The translations under genes were made by a program, and so were the position numbers. 64,000 nt of DNA, taken from the NCBI GenBank assembly GCA_021927905.1, contig BLLK01000038.1, forward strand, positions 1,240,001 through 1,304,000. Reading direction: 5' to 3'. Source of the stretch: Chaetoceros tenuissimus (taxonomy: Eukaryota > Bacillariophyta > Thalassiosirophyceae > Chaetocerotales > Chaetocerotaceae). The notes beneath the pieces are model-generated. The model worked only from the letters and a program-made list of their open reading frames with translations, was not told where the DNA came from and ran no database searches. Numbering within the stretch: position 1 is the stretch's first letter; the number at the start of each line of letters is the position of its first letter. Below are positions 2,091 through 58,810 of the stretch, piece by piece.

Positions 2091-3532
2091 AGCTACGCGG
2101 GCAAAAAACTCGTCCGGACGAGTTTTTTTCCGGGTCTTTGAAAAAATTTGGAAGCAAGTGCACTACTAACGGATAATGCAAATCTCTATGTACAATTGAA
2201 AAAAAAATGTTGTAGAAATACAAAAGTATTAGACAAATCCGGCTTGAGCCCTCATGTTGCAATATGCAACATTCCCCCCTTCTCATGTTGCAATTTGCAA
2301 CATGAGATGCCTACGGGCATTCCTACGTGAAAACCATATGGGAGCACAAAAGTCACAGAAAATACACGATAAAAATAGAAATAACTAGTAGAAATAATGC
2401 TAATAATACGTCTAGTGCAAAATGATTTGATACATGTTTTGGTGCACATTTTGATAGAACATGGTCAAATATATGTGTCTGAAGTGTTGAGTGTCTTCCA
2501 TTCACTCATATACATCACATAGTCTCATGTTATGTATGCAAAAAAAGAGGGGGGAGAACTCATCATGCACACATTATTAACGATAGGTTATTGATCCTGA
2601 ATGCTTTGCAGCCACTCAATTGAAATTCCAGACACAAAGATACGACTCAATGAGAAAAATGTTGTCTTGGAGCACCTAATATTACTACAATCTAGTCTGG
2701 TAAAGCATCAAAATGAGAGTATATATACTTTATTTAGTATTTGTTTAAGACATAGGTTGTGTGTTTCAAGTCTGAAAAGTACCTATGTAACACTTTATTT
2801 GTTGCCAAAGTAGGCATAAATCGTGAATTTCCCCCTTTTTGGCCATATGTAAGATGTGACTATCCAACATATGTGTGTGAACTGAGGACGCAGAATACTG
2901 CAAACATGTGTGGTAGAGTAGATGCAATGTTAGTGTGAAGCAAAACACATGTAAAATCCTTTCTTACAACAAGTATACTATAGCATCATTTTTGTTAGTG
3001 TTTTGTACTATGATTTTTCTTCAAAATGTGTCTTTCAGTATGGTTTTCTTGTAGAAACGCTCGTAGGGCTCCATGTTGCAATTTGCAACATGAGAGGCCA
3101 AAACCCCGCAAAAAACCTCATGCCGGATATGTCTTCTACTAGTATAAAGATAAATATTTTGTATGGGATGGATATTGTTTTCATGGATTCTTCGACCACT
3201 AATGAAATCGTCCGAGTTTGAGATTTCTGGTATGAGTAAGTACGAGGAAATCACGTAGAAAATAGCCCAAAAATCAACAAATATCAAATGGCTTAGTAGT
3301 GCAATAAACGTGCTACAAAGTCTGTTGAGCAGCCTAATATGATTGTCTAGAGTATATACAAGACTTGTACAATGGCAGTTTCATTGAAAATGATGTATGT
3401 TGAGGTCTAATTGGGGTTTATTTAGACTTGTATGAAAATGAGTCTTTTCTGAATTTTGCACAAAGAAGCTACCAAAAACTCGTCCGGACGAGTTTTCCAC
3501 GCAGACGAGTTTTCCACCCGCGTAGTGTAGCT
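2091..3532. mobile_element. Non-autonomous foldback-type element with palindromic ends, about 1.44 kb
   Basis: The two ends are inverted copies of each other. The left end begins AGCTACGCGGGC and runs into the perfect palindrome AACTCGTCCGGACGAGTT (2107-2124). The right end, read inverted, begins AGCTACACTACGCGGGTGG, has a half-site GACGAGTTTTCCAC, and then the same palindrome (3477-3494). A second palindrome, ATGTTGCAATTTGCAACAT, lies at 2285-2303 and 3073-3091, with a variant (AATATGC centre) at 2254-2272. There is no convincing ORF longer than about 88 codons inside, and no clear target-site duplication was found. A MITE or foldback element is the best reading. Confidence 0.6.
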
Positions 3533-16773: not shown

Positions 16774-18543
16774 ATGATTGTGAGAAGAGAAATATGCAAA
16801 GCTGCACTCAGTGGTGAGGAGTGCCCACTAGGAAGTCGTTGCAAGTTTGCTCATTCCAGAAAAGAATTGGACTTGACGACCATTCTGGAAAGATTGGATG
16901 CCGGCATCGTTGATGATGTAAATGTTTTTCGTTCTACGCTATGCTTCGATCAAATTGCTACAGGATCTTGGTAAGTAAAGGTATTGCTTATTCTATTCTT
17001 ATCTTCATCATTGGCTGCTTTGAATCACATCATAACAATTGCGTCTTTTGTATCTTTGGTGACAGTCCCTACCAAAGCAAGTGCAACTGTATTCACGATC
17101 CTCGAATGATAGCAATGTCTTCACCAGCATGGCTGCCGAAACAAATGAAGAAATGTGATAGTTTCTCGACAGACATTCACGTGGACTGGAATCACTTTGC
17201 GAAGCAGAACATTGTGAACTATGGTGTCAATCTACCTTACAGACAACAAAAGAGATTGTTTCGTGGCGTAGAGTCGTTCTATTCTATCGCTTCTGGTGTA
17301 GACGCTGTAAAGGATATCAAGAACACCTTTGCATCAAGTAATGCTAGTACTAATGCTGAGCTCTTGAGACTTGAAGTCGCTCTTGCTATGATGAAGAAGA
17401 GGGACAACTGCTATGTACCCTACAAGTACAAACCAACCCATGCTATCATGGATCGACTATGCGCAGTGATCAATGAATGTGCTTTCGAGATCTTACCTGG
17501 TCGAGAACCTGGCTCTTCGTTGATCCTCAAGGAAATACCATTCGTGAAGTATGACTCTCACAATGCTCGACATGTTTCAGTGCATGAGGTAGCCTTCGCT
17601 CCATATGGATATTCTAGATGCTATCAAGATATTCCTCTACCAATGTTGCTATTCAATCTAGATGCAAAGAAGGTGCTTCGTCCTGCTACTAGGAGGATGA
17701 TAATAGCCTATGAAAACGCGAAGAAGGATGAAGTCCAGCAATTGACAAGGCAAACTATTCAAGAAAGGCGCAATCGTCGTCGTATATCTCCGTTTGTTCC
17801 TGTACCAACAAAACGCTTTGATAAGCTCATCGAAGACATGCGCAAGGTAGGCAAATGCCATTACCCTGTACTTTACTCACAGGATCGTGAGATGCATGAC
17901 ATGATTATCGATGCGATTGCCTTGAGAATTGATATGCTTCTCGGTAAGGAGCTTGATGCGAGAGAGAAGACTCGTGCTCTTGAGCAGAAGTTCACATCCT
18001 TGATGCGCTTTTACAAGGACTCAGTGAATGCCTGGCCACTCTGTGATGGTCGAGGAAATATGTTTATTGATCAGCATACTGAAGTGTACGATGTCGAGAC
18101 TATCTATAGGCCATATATTTCGACTACTGATCAGTCTGATGCTGAGAGAGGACAAGGAAAGCTCCTTCATCATTACAGAGAGGGTATTCTTTCAAGTTTT
18201 TTTTGACAACTTGGATGCTGTCGATGACGAGTTTGAAACTGTGTACCCATTACTTTTTGGAAAGAAAAGGCCATATGATCCCTCGGCTACTGCTACTTCA
18301 TCTTCAGAAGAACAGAAACCTTCGAAAGTGGTAGACGAGGATTCGATTGACAATACAATCGACTTGTTTCCTGTCCCTGATTTGACTCGCGTCTTCGAAG
18401 ATCTTGAGAAGGATTGGGAGCCAGTTGTAGCGAAATTTCAGGGGGAACGAGAAGAAAATGCCGATGCTAGACTACTAGGGGACACTCTCACGACATTAAA
18501 TACTTGGGGATTGAAGAGTACAATAATAAATACAGTAGGATAA
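16774..18543 (+). pseudogene. zfA: two-CCCH-finger protein, one intron, frameshifted near the 3' end
   Basis: Exon 1 is 16774-16970, the intron 16971-17065 (GTAAGT..GACAG, 95 bp), exon 2 from 17066. Splicing completes the second finger: finger 1 is C-x8-C-x5-C-x3-H (CKAALSGEECPLGSRCKFAH) and finger 2 becomes C-x8-C-x5-C-x3-H only when the exons join (..GS-C-PYQSKCNCIH). The rest is a ~400-residue domain not recognised (HVDWNH, QNIVNYGVNLPY, YGYSRC, KCHYPVLYSQDREMHDM). CCCH pairs usually bind RNA. Eight T at 18197-18204, against seven in zfB and zfC, shift the frame at GILSSFF; the normal C-terminus continues in the next frame to 18543. The ATG at 16774 is chosen because all four paralogues align from it. 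Downstream flank 18544-18885 is shared, inverted, with the zfD locus. Confidence 0.75.
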
Positions 18544-22547: not shown

Positions 22548-24290
22548 ATGATTGTAAAGACGGAAATGTGCAAGCATATACTCAGGAGTGGTAGTTGCCC
22601 ACTCGGATATCGTTGTATGTATGCACATGCTAGAAAAGAATTGCAATTGACAACCATTTATGAAAGATTCGATGCTGGTCGCATTGATGATATCAATACT
22701 TTTCGTTCAACGCTATGCTTTGATTATGTTGCTACGGGAGCATGGTAAGTTCTTCATACAGGTCATTGATTTCTTTCATAACTTATTTCATTATGCTCGC
22801 ATGATCATGATCTGTATTATTGCATAATTTGACTAAAACATCATTGCTTTTGTCTTCATGATGGTGACAGTCCCTTCAACAACAATAGATGCGCTTGTAT
22901 TCATGACCATCGGATGAAAGCATTGGCAGAACCAGCATGGCTGCCAAAGCTGACCAAGGGTATCAAGAGCATCTCGACAGAGATTCATGTAGATTGGAAC
23001 CATTATGCCAAACAGAACATCGTGAACTATGGCGTGAATCTACCTTACACACAGGCTAGAAGCTTGTTTGGTAGCGTAGATGCGTTCTACTCTATTGTCA
23101 CTGGTCAAGACGCTGTAAAGGATCTCCAGGCCTCAGCATCAAGAAGTGGTACACTAGGCAGTGCCGGGTACTCAGTGTGGAGTGGTAATCGTACTACTCC
23201 TGAACTCGTGAGACTTGAAGTCGCTTTTGCTATGATGAAGAAGAGAACCAGCTACTTTGAGCCCTATCAGTACAACCCGAACCATTTCCTCATGGATCGA
23301 CTATGCGCAGTGATCAATGAATGTGCATTCGAGATCTTACCTGGTCAAGAACCTGGCTCTTCATTGAAGATCAAGGAAATACCATTCGCGAAGTATGACG
23401 CTCACAATGGCCGTCACGTTTCGGTGCATGAGGTAGCCTTTGCTCCATATGGATATTCTAGATGCTTTGAAGATATTCCTCTACCAATGCTGCTATTCAA
23501 TCTAGATGCAAAGAAGGTGCTTCGTCCTGCTACTTGGAAGGACAAAATGCAATATGAGAATGCGAAGAAGGATGAAGTCCAGCAATTGACAAGGCAAACT
23601 ATTCAAGAAAGATACAGTCATCATACAGCAAGCTTTGTTCCTGTACCAACAAAACGCTATGACAAGCTCATTGAAGACATGCGCAAGGTAGGCAAATGCC
23701 ATTACCCTGTACTCTACTCACAGGATCGTGAGATGCATGACATGATTATCGATGCGATTACCTTGAGAATTGATATGCTTCTCGGTAAGGAGCTTGATGC
23801 GAGAGAGAAGACTCGTGCTCTTGAGCAGAAGTTCACATCCTTGATGCGCTTTTACAAGGACTCAGTGAATGCCTGGCCGCTTTGTGATGGTCGAGGAAAT
23901 ATGTTTACTGATCAACATACTGAAGTGTACGATGTCGAGACTATCTATAGGCCATATATTTCGACTACTGATCAGTCTGATGCTGAGAGAGGACAAGGAA
24001 AGCTCCTTCATCATTACAGAGAGGGTATTCTTTCAAGTTTTTTTGACAACTTGGATGCTGTCGATGACGAGTTTGAAACATGTCCCTACACGCGTCGTGG
24101 AAACAACAGAGGAAGGCTTTATGAATCATTGGCTACCTCTACAAGAGTCGAAGAAGGAGCTTGGACCGGAGGGAAAGGGGGAAGTAAGATTGACTCATCC
24201 ATAGAGATGCCAGCAATGCCTCCTAATTTTTCTCGTTTCTTTGAAGATCTTGAGAAGAATTGGGACCCAGTTGTAATGAAATACGGATGA
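22548..24290 (+). CDS. zfB: intact two-CCCH-finger protein
   Basis: The only family member here with an undisturbed frame. Exon 1 22548-22744, intron 22745-22870 (126 bp, GTAAGT..GACAG), exon 2 22871-24290; 538 residues. Finger 1 is CKHILRSGSCPLGYRCMYAH; finger 2 (C-x8-C-x6-C-x3-H) is completed by splicing after ATGA, giving C-PFNNNR-C-ACI-H. The conserved body follows, with HVDWNHYAKQNIVNYG near the start and a Cys/His-containing segment KCHYPVLYSQDREMHDM. The C-terminus after FDNLDAVDDEFET differs from zfA, zfC and zfD (CPYTRRGNNRG..GGKGG.. instead of VYPLLFGKKRPYD) before converging again on FFEDLEK.WDPVV. RNA binding is inferred from the finger pair; the main domain is unknown to me. Confidence 0.8.
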
Positions 24291-28518: not shown

Positions 28519-30262
28519 ATGATTGTAAAGACGGAAATGCGCAAGCATATACTCAGGAGTGGTAGTTGCCCACTCGGATATCGTTGTATGTATGCACATG
28601 CTAGAAAAGAATTGCAATTGACAACCATTTATGAAAGATTCGATGCTGGTCGCATTGATGATATCAATACTTTTCGTTCAACGCTATGCTTTGATTATGT
28701 TGCTACGGGAGCATGGTAAGTTCTTCATACAGGTCATTGATTTCTTTCATAACTTATTTCATTATGCTCGTATGATCATGACCTGTATTATTGCATAATT
28801 TGACTAAAACATCATTGCTTTTGTCTTCATGATGGTGACAGTCCCTTCAACAACAATAGATGCGCTTGTATTCATGACCATCGGATGAAAGCATTGGCAG
28901 AACCAGCATGGCTGCCAAAGCTGACCAAGGGTATCAAGAGCATCTCGACAGAGATTCATGTAGATTGGAACCATTATGCCAAACAGAACATCGTGAACTA
29001 TGGCGTGAATCTACCTTACACACAGGCTAGAAGCTTGTTTGGTAGCGTAGATGCGTTCTACTCTATTGTCACTGGTCAAGACGCTGTAAAGGATCTCCAG
29101 GCCTCAGCATCAAGAAGTACACTAGGCGGCGCCGGGTACTCAGTGTGGAGTGGTAATCGTACTATTCCTGAACTCGTGAGACTTGAAGTTGCTCTTGCTA
29201 TGATGAAGAAGAGGGACAAATGCTATGTACCCTACAAGTACAAACCAACCCATGCTATCATGGATCGACTATGCGCAGTGATCAATGAATGTGCTTTCGA
29301 GATCTTACCTGGTCAAGAACCTGGCTCTTCATTGAAGATCAAGGAAATACCATTCGCGAAGTATGACACTTACAATGCTCGACATGTTTCAGTGCATGAG
29401 GTAGCCTTTGCTCCATATGGATATTCTAGATGCTATGAAGATATTCCTCTACCAATGTTGCTATTCAATCTAGATGCAAAGAAGGTGCTTAGTCCTGCTA
29501 CTAGGAGGATGATAATAGCCTATGAAAACGCGAAGAAGGATGAAGTCCAGCAATTGACAAGGCAAACTATTCAAGAAAGGTGCAATCGTCGTCGTATATC
29601 TCCGTTTGTTCCTGTACCAACAAAACGCTTTGATAAGCTCATCGAAGACATGCGCAAGGTAGGCAAATGCCATTACCCTGTACTTTACTCACAGGATCGT
29701 GAGATGCATGACATGATTATCGATGCGATTGCCTTGAGAATTGATATGATTCTCGGCAAGGAGCCTGATGCGAGAGAGAAGACTCGTGCTCTTGAGCAGA
29801 AGTTCACATCCTTGATGCGCTTTTACAAGGACTCAGTGAATGCCTGGCCGCTTTGTGATGGTCAAGGAAATATGTTTATTGATCAGCATACTGAAGTGTA
29901 CGATGTCGAGACTATCTATAGGCCATATATTTCCACTACTGATCAGTCTGATGCTGAGAGAGGACAAGGAAAGCTCCTTCATCATTACAGAGAGGGTATT
30001 CTTTCAAGTTTTTTTGACAACTTGGATGCTGTCGATGATGATTTTGAAACTGTGTACCCATTACTTTTTTGGAAAGAAAAGGCCATATGACACTTCGGCT
30101 ACTGCTACTTCATCTTCAGAAGAACAGAAACCTTTGAAAGTGGTAGACGAGGATTCAATTGACAATACAATCGACTTGTTTCCTGTCCCTGATTTGACTC
30201 GCGTCTTCGAAGATCTTGAGAAGGATTGGGGTCCAGTTGTAGCGAAATTTCAGGGGGAATGA
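28519..30262 (+). pseudogene. zfC: chimeric CCCH gene with lost finger Cys and a frameshift
   Basis: Exon 1 28519-28715, intron 28716-28841 (126 bp, almost identical to the zfB intron), exon 2 from 28842. The first ~220 codons are zfB-like (SRSTLGGAGYSVWSGNRT), then the body and C-terminus become zfA/zfD-like (CYVPYKYKPTHAIM, RRMIIAYENAKKDE, VYPLLF), while the 3' flank is zfB-like again. The first Cys of finger 1 is replaced by Arg (MRKHILRSG where zfB has MCKHILRSG). Six T at 30065-30070, against five in zfA, shift the frame, so the ORF stops at 30090; the usual C-terminus lies in another frame to 30262. Either defect alone would weaken the protein, and together they suggest decay. Confidence 0.75.
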
Positions 30263-53494: not shown

Positions 53495-53688
53495 GTTTAT
53501 ATAATTGGCTAGAGTAGAAGTTCAGTAAGAAGAGGAGAGTAGCTATAGCCGGGTTGTGTAGAGGTCGAGATGATGACTTTAGGCTGGTAGAGCTATATGT
53601 TGTTGAAAGAACAAATAGTAACAATGGCCAAGTAATGAATTAGACATGTATGTGTTGTTAGTTGTTGGCGAAGAAGAATGAACTGATA

Positions 53689-54635
53689 CACATTAAACCT
53701 CACCGGGGGAGCTACATGAAAATCTCTCCCCCCTATTCATTCCCACAAAACTGTAAGAAAAGGTTCTAGGATGCATAACCTGACATCTGAACGGATTCAT
53801 TCCACCTTTCAAAAAGTGTTTGAGAAAAAAAAGATTGTCTTTTTCTCTATTACACTCTCGCGTAAAAGTAGTAAGTAATTCTTATTTACATTGATTGTAC
53901 TCCACCAACACACTATTATAGATAATACTAGTTCAGAAAGCATACAAAGACTAAAAGAACAAACATATAAAAGTTCTGCTCTACGAACTTATCTTGTAGT
54001 GTGAAAGAGTGCATTTCAAAACATGATGCAGACAAGAGCAATGAAAGAAAAGAAGAAAACTGTTTTGGTAATTTTCTAAAAAACACCAAGTGTTACAATA
54101 TCATATTGGTTTAATAATAGTACGCAAATGTATACTTAATTCAATTTTGATGATTTCAGCAATACACAAAACGTTTGGAGGTACATGTATCAATGTCACC
54201 AAGAAAACGAAGTAAAAACCCACAAAGAAAACTATGTAAGCATAAAGCGCAGTGATCGCGGACCTCTTGGAATACCACCTTTACTTGATTGTAGCTGATT
54301 CATAGGTGGAGTTGGGGGAAGATGACAAGTAGTAGAGATTCACTTAGGAAACATTCCTCCGCCGGCCGGCCACTCAATGTGGTCACAAGCCATTCCCCGT
54401 CTTCTTTACGTTGTATGTATTCTAGAAACAACAAAAATATAACAAGAAAGATAGAAGTCACCATACGCTTTGGTGGAATGTTTATTGGTTATCAACTTTT
54501 TATGTTACTTCCAGCAGAGAGAGAGACGTGTGTGTTCGTTGCTTCTTCTTCTCCGCATTTGAATTTTTGTGGGAATGAGTAGAGGGGTGGTAAAATTCAG
54601 ACTTTCATGTGACTCCCCCGGTGAGGTTTAATGTG
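53689..54635. mobile_element. Non-autonomous Tc1/mariner-type element, 947 bp
   Basis: The ends are inverted repeats: CACATTAAACCTCACCGGGG at 53689 and its reverse complement ending at 54635. The similarity continues inward for ~65 bp with gaps (GGGAG..ACATGAAA.TCT, CCCCT..TCATTCCCACAAAA). TA flanks both sides (53687-53688 and 54636-54637), fitting a TA target duplication. No transposase; the 86-codon frame at 54322-54582 has no domain. Confidence 0.8.
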
Positions 54636-54734
54636 TATCGGTGACGTGAGCTTCTACGTTTTCTTATGAGAAAGTTTTGTAAGTGTCATGTGACATATCT
54701 AATAAGCTATTTTTGACAGCAGTCAATTTTCAGA

Positions 54735-55749
54735 CCCTTTCCTAGACGAGGGGGCCAAAAGTGGCCTTTTTCAGAAAAATCATAATATCACTTGTAATTG
54801 GTCAATTTTACTTATTCCAAGTACTCTATATTCCTGAACATATTGTTTCTAATGCTTGTGTAATTTTATAGCTTCGAAATTTAATTTTTTGTTGAGTTAT
54901 TACAACATTACTTTCCAATGTGTATTGACAGTAGTGTCAAAATGTCCTAGAAAAACGCAATACAAAAAGTTGCTATTTTTTGTTTGACCTTTACATTTCT
55001 TTGTTTAAAAGTCGAATCTATACTTTTGTTGATTTATTCTGCTTCTAAATGCTTTGTTTATTGGATATGAATCGAGAGATCTGGGCGAATCAGTGATTTG
55101 AAGCCGAAATGGCTCAAATTCCAAAATCCATGAAATTCATCGCCAAAATTGAGATTTTCAGAACCCGGGCGATCCATAGTATAGATTGAAACTGAGCATC
55201 CTATGGCATTGCATAAGCAAACCAAGATAGATACCCCTTCCTTATGTATTAATGGAGGAATGTGGATTGTTGTATTGCTTTCAGTCTTTATTTTTCGATC
55301 ATTTCACGCCATTTTCCAAAAGAGGTCCATTTCTACAAAATCTTCAGATTCAACATGTATTTTTACAACGTTTTTGTGGTACAATAAAGCTCAAAAGTCC
55401 CGGTTCTCTCGTTTTCCATTCGTTCTTCATACTATCAGCTTCCTATTGATATGCTGTTTATGTTCATTGAATTTATATTTCCTTTGATTTGCACATATCT
55501 TCATAGTCTTCTCCATAAATTCAATGAGAACCCTACAGCAAGTCAATACTGTATATTTTATCAAATACAATGCACAAAATCTTAATCCGAGCGCACCATC
55601 CATTCAAATAGGTACATAGTAGACTACTGATGAAATTTGGTGTAATTTTATTTGTTGGAAGTGATGGAATTGAGACGATGTGTTTGGTAATGTTGTGTGT
55701 GTTCTTTTTTTATCGCCAAAAAAGTGACGATCTCCCGTCTAGGAAAGGG
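54735..55749. mobile_element. Non-autonomous piggyBac-like element, 1015 bp
   Basis: Inverted ends CCCTTTCCTAGACGAGGG (from 54735) and CCCTTTCCTAGACGGGAG (inverted, ending at 55749). The right end is followed by TTAA (55750-55753), the piggyBac target; the left flank is CAGA, so one TTAA is mutated or the assignment is imperfect. Internal frames (e.g. 55203-55487, hydrophobic) show no transposase. It lies ~100 bp from the previous element. Confidence 0.6.
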
Positions 55750-55886: not shown

Positions 55887-58810
55887 ATGGAGACAAATAA
55901 GGAAGCAAACACATCTTCAACTCCAGACGAAAGTACCAAAAGCAGTCCGAAACCATTTACACTTGCAGATCTGGAAAAGAAACTTGCTTCGGCAGACATC
56001 AACGCAGACACACTTACAGTAGACCCTAGCCAGTTTCTATCCATTAACTTGACATCTGCACAAGATATCCGAGCTAGGGGTACGGCCACATATCTGCGGA
56101 TAAAATGGCACATTTTTTCCTGATTTCAGATATCAAAATATATCCAATGGATATTAATGTATATATGCTTTATATAGTGTATTTAACTCATATTTTAGGC
56201 ATTGTAATCATCTACAAGACAATTGTTGCATCATAGAAGCACTCTATGTTCTAAAGTTTCTCTAACAAACCTATCTCCTACGATCTATGAGCTTGTCAGG
56301 ACTCACTTCACTTGCTCACAAGACGAAGCAGCAAACCATGATCGCAGATAGTATCACTGAATTGACTTTTTGTAAATTCGACAGCTTCTTGTTCATATTA
56401 ATAAACTATAAACTTCATCGTCGATCTTCTTGAGGTTAAGCTTGTTAATAATTTCTAATGCTCTAACACCAGATACAGCATTTATAGTTTGTACCAATGC
56501 TGTGCCAATGGTAGGCACGACAGATGTCGGGTCATGTAGGGGACGTCGGGTAGGCCGTTCAAGTAGGACGGATATATTTCGGATAAAGTGCCACTCAAAA
56601 CTGGATATGTGGCCGTACCCCTAATCCGAGCTTCTGTAGAAAAGCAAGATACCAGCAACTCTGGAAAGCAAGATCTAGATCCATCATTGCCAGTACCCGA
56701 CTCTCAAGAAGATTCTTCTTCCATTACTGAATTTTTATCGTCGCCAGAAGCACTTGAAACGGCAAACAGTGAATCAGAAGATATAGATATAGACTTTGAA
56801 CCTATACCCGTTGAGACGTCCCCTTATAACAAACCCATTCGACATCATAGCATTGAAGAAATTGATAACCAGAGTTTACTCAATCCAGACGATTATCAAC
56901 ACATTTTCGAAGACGAATATTTGGCTGATTTTTTCGATCAAGAATTGCAAGACACAAAGAAACAAGAACAAGAGTTGACACAAGCTCTCAATCAGTTGAA
57001 TTTAGATACAGACGAGACAACAGGGACTGATTCCATTCCTCAAGATAACACCAATCATCTCGTACAACAGTTCCACAGTGGTCTAGGTCAATCTCTCTAT
57101 TGTCTACCGTGTAACCCTGACAAAGAAGAGACATTTCAATATCAATTTGATAATAATATCGATTTCGGAATTGATCCGTCCGACATTCGTTTGAGAGAAC
57201 AAGCTGATTTTGATTTTGATAACGAATCTCTCAACGACGAGGATTTACAGGCTTTTTTGCAGCACGTCATGTTGAGTGAAAAGAACGACGCAAACATGGA
57301 TAGTCAAGATATACAACAAGAAGATGAACCCTTTTATCATGTCAGTCAGAGGCAAGAAGCACTTTCATTGGCGACACCTTTGGTAAATGCTTTTTATAAT
57401 GAAGGTACAGAACGACAATGCTTTGGTCACAAGGATAAAATATTTGGAGTGGCGTTTTCACCGTGTGGGCGGTTTTTTGCAACTGCGAGTGAAGATAGTA
57501 CAGTCAAAATTTGGAATGTGAAGCAGAATTCTCTTGTGAGTACCATATCGGGGAGTTCTGATCATGAATGTCTACGCGTTGCATGGGCTTCTAGCTCTTG
57601 GGGGTCAGGAAATGGTTCAAAGTTTGAACGAAAAGATGGGGATTTAATTTTAGCTACATCAGGATCAGATGGATATGCTAGGATTTTGCATTCTCTTGAT
57701 CAAGCAAAGTCATGGAAGGAACTTGCTGCTCTGGATCATTTGGAAGAAAAGAGAAAGAATAGTGTCAAACCGGAAAAACTAAACGTCATCGAGGAGGGAG
57801 ATGAAGAAAATGAGGAAGAGAAGTCAGCTCAAGAACAAAAGGAAGAAGTTCTTGGTACTGAGATTTATTCATTGCAGTTTATCGATAAATGGAGTGGTCT
57901 TCCTTCTCTAGAATCTGATGGAAGTGCATCCATTAGCGCAATCATGACTTCTTCTGAAGATTTTATTCATGTTTGGCAATACAATCCTTCCGCTCCCGAC
58001 CAAGAGGATACCACGAATGAGAAGGAAGAAAATGGAATAATCAATATTGAGAAAGTGATAGATATAAAATTCACACATCTTGAACACGGGTTTGGTGGTG
58101 TGTTTGTTCATGTCAATTCTAAGAATGAAGATCAAGGCCCCGATTGGTCAGATGCTCAATTGACCAATATTATTACGAAGACAAAGGCATTTGGAGGAGA
58201 TCGAAATCCAGATAACCTTGTATTTGTATTTGATGCTGTACAGTGTCCAGCAAATAATCTAGTCGGTGCAGCACTTTCTGATGGAACCTTGCGGTTGGTG
58301 AATGGTCGAGGAATTTGCGTCACTATTTTACAACTTCCAGGCTGCCAGAGTCATTTGACATCATTTACTTGGGATCAAAGTGGGTATAGATTAGCAAGCA
58401 CCGTTGCAACAGGTCATGTAGTACTATGGGATATTGATTATGGTGATGGTAGAGGAACAGTTCAACCAGTTTGTCGTGCAGTATTGGAGGGAGGGCATCA
58501 ATCTGGTCGACCTCTTTTTGGAGCTCGATACCTTGGTGGACCAAACGAAGACTTACTACTGTCTTGGGGTATTGATGGGAAATTATGTTTATGGGATTCA
58601 CTTTCTACTGGACAAATTGGAGCTCCTATTTGCGAGCTAGTATCGAAAGCTGATTATCCAATATTTGCTGTGGATACGTATGAAAGTAGTGCAGAGGCAA
58701 ACGAAAATAAGTCATCAATCTGCATTGCAGGTGGAAATGAAGGTGGATTTATTGGTATGCCTTGCTATCTGTATAATTACTCTTCAGAAGCAAAATTTTC
58801 CGAACAATGA
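55887..58810 (+). CDS. WD40-repeat protein interrupted by a spliceable hAT-type element
   Basis: Proposed structure: exon 1 55887-56079, intron 56080-56630 (551 bp, GTACGG..CCGAG), exon 2 56631-58810; 790 residues, with one frame kept across the junction (..AQDIRAR-ASVEKQD..). The N-terminal ~280 residues are acidic and low-complexity with a Gln/Asp-rich helix. The C-terminal half has WD40 blades: GHKDKIFGVAFSPCGRFFAT then DSTVKIWNV, a second blade with SGSDGYARIL, a blade with SEDFIHVWQY, SGYRLASTVATGHVVLWDI and GIDGKLCLWDS. Likely a scaffold in a multiprotein complex; orthology not recognised. If the element is not spliced out, the first frame would end at a TGA about 40 bases into the insert and the second would need another start. 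Confidence 0.75.
56075..56623. mobile_element. hAT-type MITE inside the WD40 gene, 549 bp
   Basis: A perfect 20-bp TIR, TAGGGGTACGGCCACATATC, at 56075-56094 and inverted at 56604-56623. Flanked by the 8-bp direct repeat ATCCGAGC (56067-56074 and 56624-56631), the hAT-type target duplication. Just inside each TIR is a related block CGGATAAA.TG.CAC in direct orientation. No transposase frame. The TIR holds a GT usable as a splice donor and the right duplication holds an AG. Confidence 0.9.

Follow-up and report, generated by a model that had tools for sequence, protein, structure and literature searches.

A WD40-repeat protein gene in the window (the 64,000-nucleotide stretch of the Chaetoceros tenuissimus genome analysed here) is interrupted by a transposable element, which raises the question of whether the element simply disrupts the gene or is removed from its transcripts as an intron. 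A preliminary description had proposed removal, classing the element as a candidate introner. Insertion of a young hAT element into a gene of a diatom is, as it stands, an ordinary event; the value of the case in the window is as a clean test of the route by which cut-and-paste elements might turn into introns. The gene and the parts of the element, with terminal inverted repeats abbreviated as TIRs, are these:

55887-58810, forward strand: WD40-repeat protein gene interrupted by the element (ATG at 55887, stop at 58808-58810; Pfam PF00400 match, coding score)
56067-56074, no strand: left copy of the 8-bp target duplication, ATCCGAGC (direct-repeat comparison)
56075-56623, forward strand: non-autonomous, MITE-like hAT element of 549 bp (TIRs, target duplication, family copies, hAT link)
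56075-56094, forward strand: left TIR, TAGGGGTACGGCCACATATC (inverted-repeat comparison)
56198-56377, reverse strand: decayed trace of a hAT transposase C terminus (47% identity, 4 stops, E 8.9e-6)
56604-56623, reverse strand: right TIR (inverted-repeat comparison)
56624-56631, no strand: right copy of the 8-bp target duplication, ATCCGAGC (direct-repeat comparison)

The two TIRs form a 20-bp pair with 100% complementarity, and both they and the duplication are perfect; together with the direct repeat, this confirmed the 549-bp element with perfect 20-bp TIRs and an 8-bp target duplication that had been described. The structure is not a product of chance, because an 8-bp duplication flanks 10 of the 11 TIR-bearing copies of the family, the exception being the copy on contig C58. 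As a separate observation, the 10-mer TAATCCGAGC of the right element junction (56622-56631) recurs about 1 kb upstream, at 55583-55592. The two matches in the window compare with 0.08 expected, at least two occurred in 3 of 100 shuffles, and the second occurrence is perhaps chance.

A diatom as the source fits 63 light-harvesting matches, one of them identical to FCPI-7 of structure 6ly5, from Chaetoceros gracilis, at 149 of 167 positions. We searched the genome (41 Mb in 68 contigs, with the window on contig 27) and found that the element matches at least 22 places, itself included; TIR searches recovered 11 elements with at least one recognizable TIR. Four of these, with TAGGGGTACGG ends, make up a young subfamily: the window element, a copy on C33 that is 100% identical to it over all 549 bases, and copies on C54 and C48 that are each 97% identical, the C48 copy having an altered right end. 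The seven older copies comprise one with a TAGGGTTACGG end on C14 (85%) and six with TAGTGTTACGG-like ends (on C21, C32, C58 and C33:1.11 Mb and two on C34), of which the C33:1.11 Mb copy has a single recognizable TIR. The subfamilies differ at TIR position 6, which is G in the four young copies (GGGGTACGG) and T in the seven older ones where the end is recognizable (GGGTTACGG). Because the C33 copy is identical to the window element, the window insertion is recent. A sister subfamily of four 564-565-bp copies without the TIR donor (C21:631750, C32:436828, C34:2617178 and C58:581747) has also moved recently, since the last three are 99-100% identical to the C21 copy. A TIR-like 20-mer at C33:444129, with three mismatches, at one end only and within a predicted exon, was dropped as chance; a backwards control pattern gave one match too.

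Ordinary hAT MITEs have TIRs and 8-bp target duplications, arise as internal deletion derivatives and lie mostly between genes, and the window element shows no essential difference from them except for the donor in the young-subfamily TIR. Its short C/TAGGG-like TIRs (TAGGGGTACGG...) and its 8-bp duplication are both hAT features; Ac/Ds elements have ends C/TAGGGATGAAA and an 8-bp duplication, according to a passage of PMC3260210. A relation to hAT transposases comes from a 1183-bp relative on C34 (974408-975590) with TIRs similar to those of the window element (23-nt inverted ends, 91% complementary), which encodes a 158-amino-acid frame matching Dimer_Tnp_hAT (E 2.7e-4, 21.1 bits against a cut-off of 21.4). 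Residues 69-154 of this piece are 48% identical to a protein that itself matches PF05699 at 36.4 bits. The window element itself keeps the decayed trace listed above, with three TGA and one TAG stops, for which Pfam gave no match on its own. Because the 1183-bp relative encodes a hAT piece of which the window element keeps a trace, the window element and its relatives are internally deleted hAT derivatives, and the hAT-type assignment of the preliminary description is thereby supported. A genome search for an autonomous element sharing these TIRs, including inspection of two longer transposase matches, found none, and the PF14372 profile gave no match, its control also matching nowhere.

Removing the element and one copy of the duplication leaves a frame of 799 codons from stop to stop, or 788 amino acids from the ATG at 55887. 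The PF00400 match lies at residues 285-317 of the host protein (P0002), and the insertion, at about residue 63, is well upstream of it, where there is no domain match. The description of an element in a WD40 coding region was therefore right in that this is a coding part of a WD40 gene, but the site is N-terminal and not in the propeller. The host frame downstream of the insertion is open over 56567-58807, and the intact 2.2-kb frame had been taken as what a working gene would show; because the insertion is recent, an open downstream frame is to be expected of a working and a non-working gene alike, and we do not count it as evidence. The assembly contains a single copy of the gene; no empty second haplotype of the insertion site was found in it, and no relatives of the gene were found in viral contigs and phages.

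Without splicing, the reading from 55887 ends at 56121 within the element, giving a 78-residue peptide, and the first in-frame methionine downstream of the element, at 57269, lies before the WD40 match. Both points suit a plain recent disruption, in which the element is not usefully spliced and the gene makes either the short peptide or a protein started at 57269 that keeps the WD40 part; the disrupted allele would persist as a young or heterozygous one, or with a dispensable N terminus. The identical C33 copy likewise fits such an event. The same methionine could mark the start of a shorter gene with the element in its 5′-UTR or promoter and the upstream part noncoding, a reading that we consider highly improbable, as the segment 55887-56078 scores as coding (17.6 in frame versus -39.6 and -23.1 for the two alternative frames, which is the 89th percentile of predicted CDS windows, with the gene itself in the training set) and the frame open from 56567 is open before 57269 as well.

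Element, family, hAT link, recency and frames can be read from the DNA, and the place of the sister copies from gene models; any splicing, in contrast, we infer. The scores come from a simple gene finder trained on 282 kb of the genome (78 genes, 116 predicted introns), with the element removed from the training copy. This splice model is an ab initio one, circular in part, and it merges some adjacent genes; its 116 introns are themselves predicted, and the long ones include fusions. The sites considered are as follows, a slash in a splice-site motif marking the cut:

56080-56085, forward strand: candidate donor GTACGG within the left TIR (score 7.2, 45th percentile of the 116 predicted introns)
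56471-56472, forward strand: internal acceptor ACACCAG/A, strong and out of frame (score 6.0, 81st percentile; stop after 114 amino acids)
56621-56625, forward strand: branch-like CTAAT, to which the TIR end contributes CTA and the duplication AT; its distance to the AG is 15 nt for 56639 and 6 nt for 56630
56629-56630, forward strand: originally proposed acceptor CCGAG/C, weak (score -1.65, below all 116 predicted acceptors)
56638-56639, forward strand: better in-frame acceptor TGTAG/A, in host exon sequence immediately after the duplication (score 3.4, 9.5th percentile; CTAAT 15 nt away)

The donor that had been placed in the left TIR is credible by this model, and its position in the element's terminus (GGG/GTACGG, at TIR position 6) is Ds1-like; 56080 was also chosen by an intermediate ab initio model in which GC donors were allowed and the window gene was joined to its neighbour. 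The pairing of this donor with an acceptor in the right duplication, which had been said to fit the introner scheme, is credible for the donor but poorly supported for the acceptor, whose score falls below those of all 116 predicted introns. That low score is partly circular, the aversion to G at -3 being partly trained in: G at -3 occurs in 0 of 57 strong-donor introns of the trained set, and with a flat acceptor model it occurs in 30 of 167 predicted introns, at a position where base use is then near random and the control mostly noise. The branch region proposed before this acceptor is poorly supported too. In 61 strong-donor introns, strict CTRAY is missing at 3-9 nt, where 2.2 occurrences would be expected, and enriched at 15-29 nt, with 17 occurrences against about 4.8, and the pairing of acceptor 56630 with CTAAT, 6 nt apart, is disfavoured; the looser YTNAY, found 17 times at 3-9 nt against 17.6 expected, shows no clear spacing contrast.

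The cut 56080-56630 does keep the frame and add AR, as described, giving 790 amino acids, and it ranks 38th among the 63 possible single frame-keeping introns. A candidate intron ending at 56639 would instead give 787 amino acids, with SV replaced by R and a net loss of one codon. Acceptor 56639 bypasses the nearer GAG; in 13 of the 61 introns another AG likewise lies within 17 nt before the used one. Eight acceptors deeper in the host exon outscore it but delete at least 14 codons. At 560 nt the candidate intron is long beside the strong-donor introns, whose median is 83 nt and of which 1 of 61 reaches 500 nt (5 of all 116 do). The presence of a good donor and several frame-keeping acceptors argues against plain disruption, and the strong out-of-frame acceptor at 56472 argues for it.

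We placed the element in either orientation at 3000 positions drawn at random from predicted coding sequence, scoring a cut of the originally proposed type wherever an open frame coincided with the donor at TIR position 6 and with an AG inside the duplication or on its border, the acceptor score being ignored. Such a cut was possible in 706 of the 3000 insertions, so that an in-frame cut is not evidence as such, and the real site is nothing special. Its best nearly lossless cut (score 10.6) was equalled in 340 of the 3000 insertions within 6 nt and in 857 within 12 nt. When each family copy was placed 1000 times, with the threshold of 10.6 taken from the real site and the cut required within 12 nt, the four young copies allowed a cut in 31.3-34.1% of placements and all seven older copies in 2.6-7.1%. 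Noncoding 549-bp segments (40, with 250 placements each) reached 7.5% on average and 18.4% at most, and 20 shuffles of the window element gave 7.9%, with a maximum of 26.8%. By this model the young subfamily is unusually splice-prone, a gain due to the GTACGG donor at TIR position 6 together with the CCCCTA end, and the completed comparison of the older copies speaks slightly for a special donor. The CCCCTA end yields a TAG acceptor if the duplication begins with G, as it did 169 times when the window element was placed 1000 times; this CCCCTA/G acceptor is missing at the real site because the duplication there begins with A.

If the element were an introner in the sense first proposed, an efficiently removed intron (56080-56630) of an intron-making family, similar copies should occupy introns in other genes; a passage of PMC9860276 describes introners as families of at least four similar introns. 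By ab initio gene models, all 10 of the other TIR-bearing copies lie between predicted genes: five between divergent genes (C54, C48, C14, C32 and C33:1.11 Mb) and five between same-strand genes, where a missed intron is possible, as the model penalises long introns. When the flanks were joined across these 10 copies, no frame longer than 121 codons ran across the site. The predicted coding fraction is 0.632 (15 stretches of 10 kb), and a single coding copy among the 11 TIR-bearing ones is correspondingly improbable (P(≤1 of 11) = 3.3e-4), as if the element avoided coding DNA or coding insertions were lost; avoidance or removal of this kind would also be in keeping with plain disruption.

Six weaker matches without two TIRs could be placed on five stretches. 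Three are outside predicted genes (C48:133881, C54:2174639 and C21:605518), and three old fragments without recognized TIRs are in predicted introns (C13:447516, C14:413294 and C54:2172389; at L029 1517-1729, L032 1495-1635 and L031 1299-1464, respectively), the C13 fragment also touching a 44-nt predicted exon. If their introns are real, these three speak slightly for the introner reading and against a Ds1-like one. The C54 and C14 introns, however, are of 512 and 651 nt with weak donors (3.2 and 3.5), and because the frames preceding them terminate on their own 2 and 14 nt beyond the donor, each probably reflects the model's fusion of two neighbouring genes that flank the fragment. Mutual comparison of the 116 predicted introns gave similar pairs only within the window or within L022. 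Those in the window belong to predicted genes at 16774-18543, 22617-24290 and 28588-30262, which have introns in common (genes two and three agree at 98% over 126 nt, genes one and three at 94% over 125 nt) and are probably local duplicates.

What remains in favour of an introner is the correct in-frame arithmetic, the credible donor and a likeness to Aureococcus introners, which also have an 8-bp TSD and add a few in-frame residues (12 nt in the case of the Fig. 2F legend of PMC9860276). The Aureococcus introners are, in the passages of that paper, intron families with both splice sites, whereas the window family has one of 11 TIR-bearing copies in a gene and candidate splicing. Given the placement of the sister copies, the poor fit of acceptor and branch to predicted introns, and the frequency with which random insertions permit the same cut, we regard the candidate-introner claim as weak and the reading behind it as very unlikely. 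Among the matches listed, judged by titles and abstract openings, no paper on introners in diatoms was found.

A closer parallel is maize Ds/Ds1, which Dennis in 1988, Wessler in 1991 and Giroux in 1994 reportedly showed, on RNA, to act as an intron. That hAT elements with such ends are said to be spliced in maize is a further point against plain disruption. The likeness is one of features: the maize element works in a plant host with splicing reportedly seen on RNA, whereas the window element resides in a diatom and its splicing is what we infer. Like the window element, Ds/Ds1 is a non-autonomous hAT element of a few hundred bp with a TAGGG start to its TIRs, an 8-bp duplication and a donor near its end, as given in passages of PMC3260210 and PMC5432752. 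The same passages of PMC5432752 state that Ds1 supplies donors and acceptors near its ends; its donors lie 12, 22 or 33 bp from the terminus, as against TIR position 6 here.

Because the young-subfamily TIR contains the donor GG/GTACGG, we propose that transcripts of the gene are probably processed as with maize Ds1, owing to this donor. In part of them 56080 would be joined to the TAG that the host exon supplies at 56639, keeping the frame and putting R in place of SV, by way of the CTAAT branch across the border of TIR and duplication; others would use the internal CAG at 56472, with a frameshift, or stay unspliced and encode the 78-residue peptide. The element is thus possibly leakily spliced, by analogy with Ds1. 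Against this stand the length of the 560-nt intron for this host and the weakness of the 56639 acceptor, which would compete with the stronger internal one at 56472. In our judgement, which leans on the splice model, Ds1-like working is slightly likelier than plain disruption. To the full reading, in which a recent cut-and-paste insertion of an internally deleted hAT derivative, not placed in an introner family, has its transcripts processed in the Ds1 manner, we would give even chances, and plain disruption we hold to be a serious possibility at somewhat less than even.

The TIR donor is absent from the older copies and present in four near-identical young ones, one of which lies in an exon, so the case bears on whether a new TIR donor suffices for an element to be spliced. 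It is conceivable, though we think it unlikely, that this hAT subfamily is at the start of becoming an introner, the change at TIR position 6 having made the donor and the window copy being the first to be sited in an exon and spliced. Were that so, the young copies would be splice-tolerant in many coding sites, and wherever the duplication began with G the CCCCTA/G acceptor would add exactly 12 nt (4 codons) at any site, unless the TAG of the TIR fell in frame.

Two other elements came to light beside this family. A 1718-bp hAT element on C34 (L037 1623-3340) has ends TAGGTATTTGTC / TAGGTACTTGTC, an 8-bp TSD, CGAATAAG, and a 374-amino-acid frame matching the hAT piece. Within the window, at 53682-54642, an element-like structure with a 44-nt inverted repeat (ACTGATACACATTAAACCTCACCGGGGGAG..., 91% complementary), its outer ends about 960 bp apart and an additional 23-nt inverted pair directly inside, is probably another DNA transposon.
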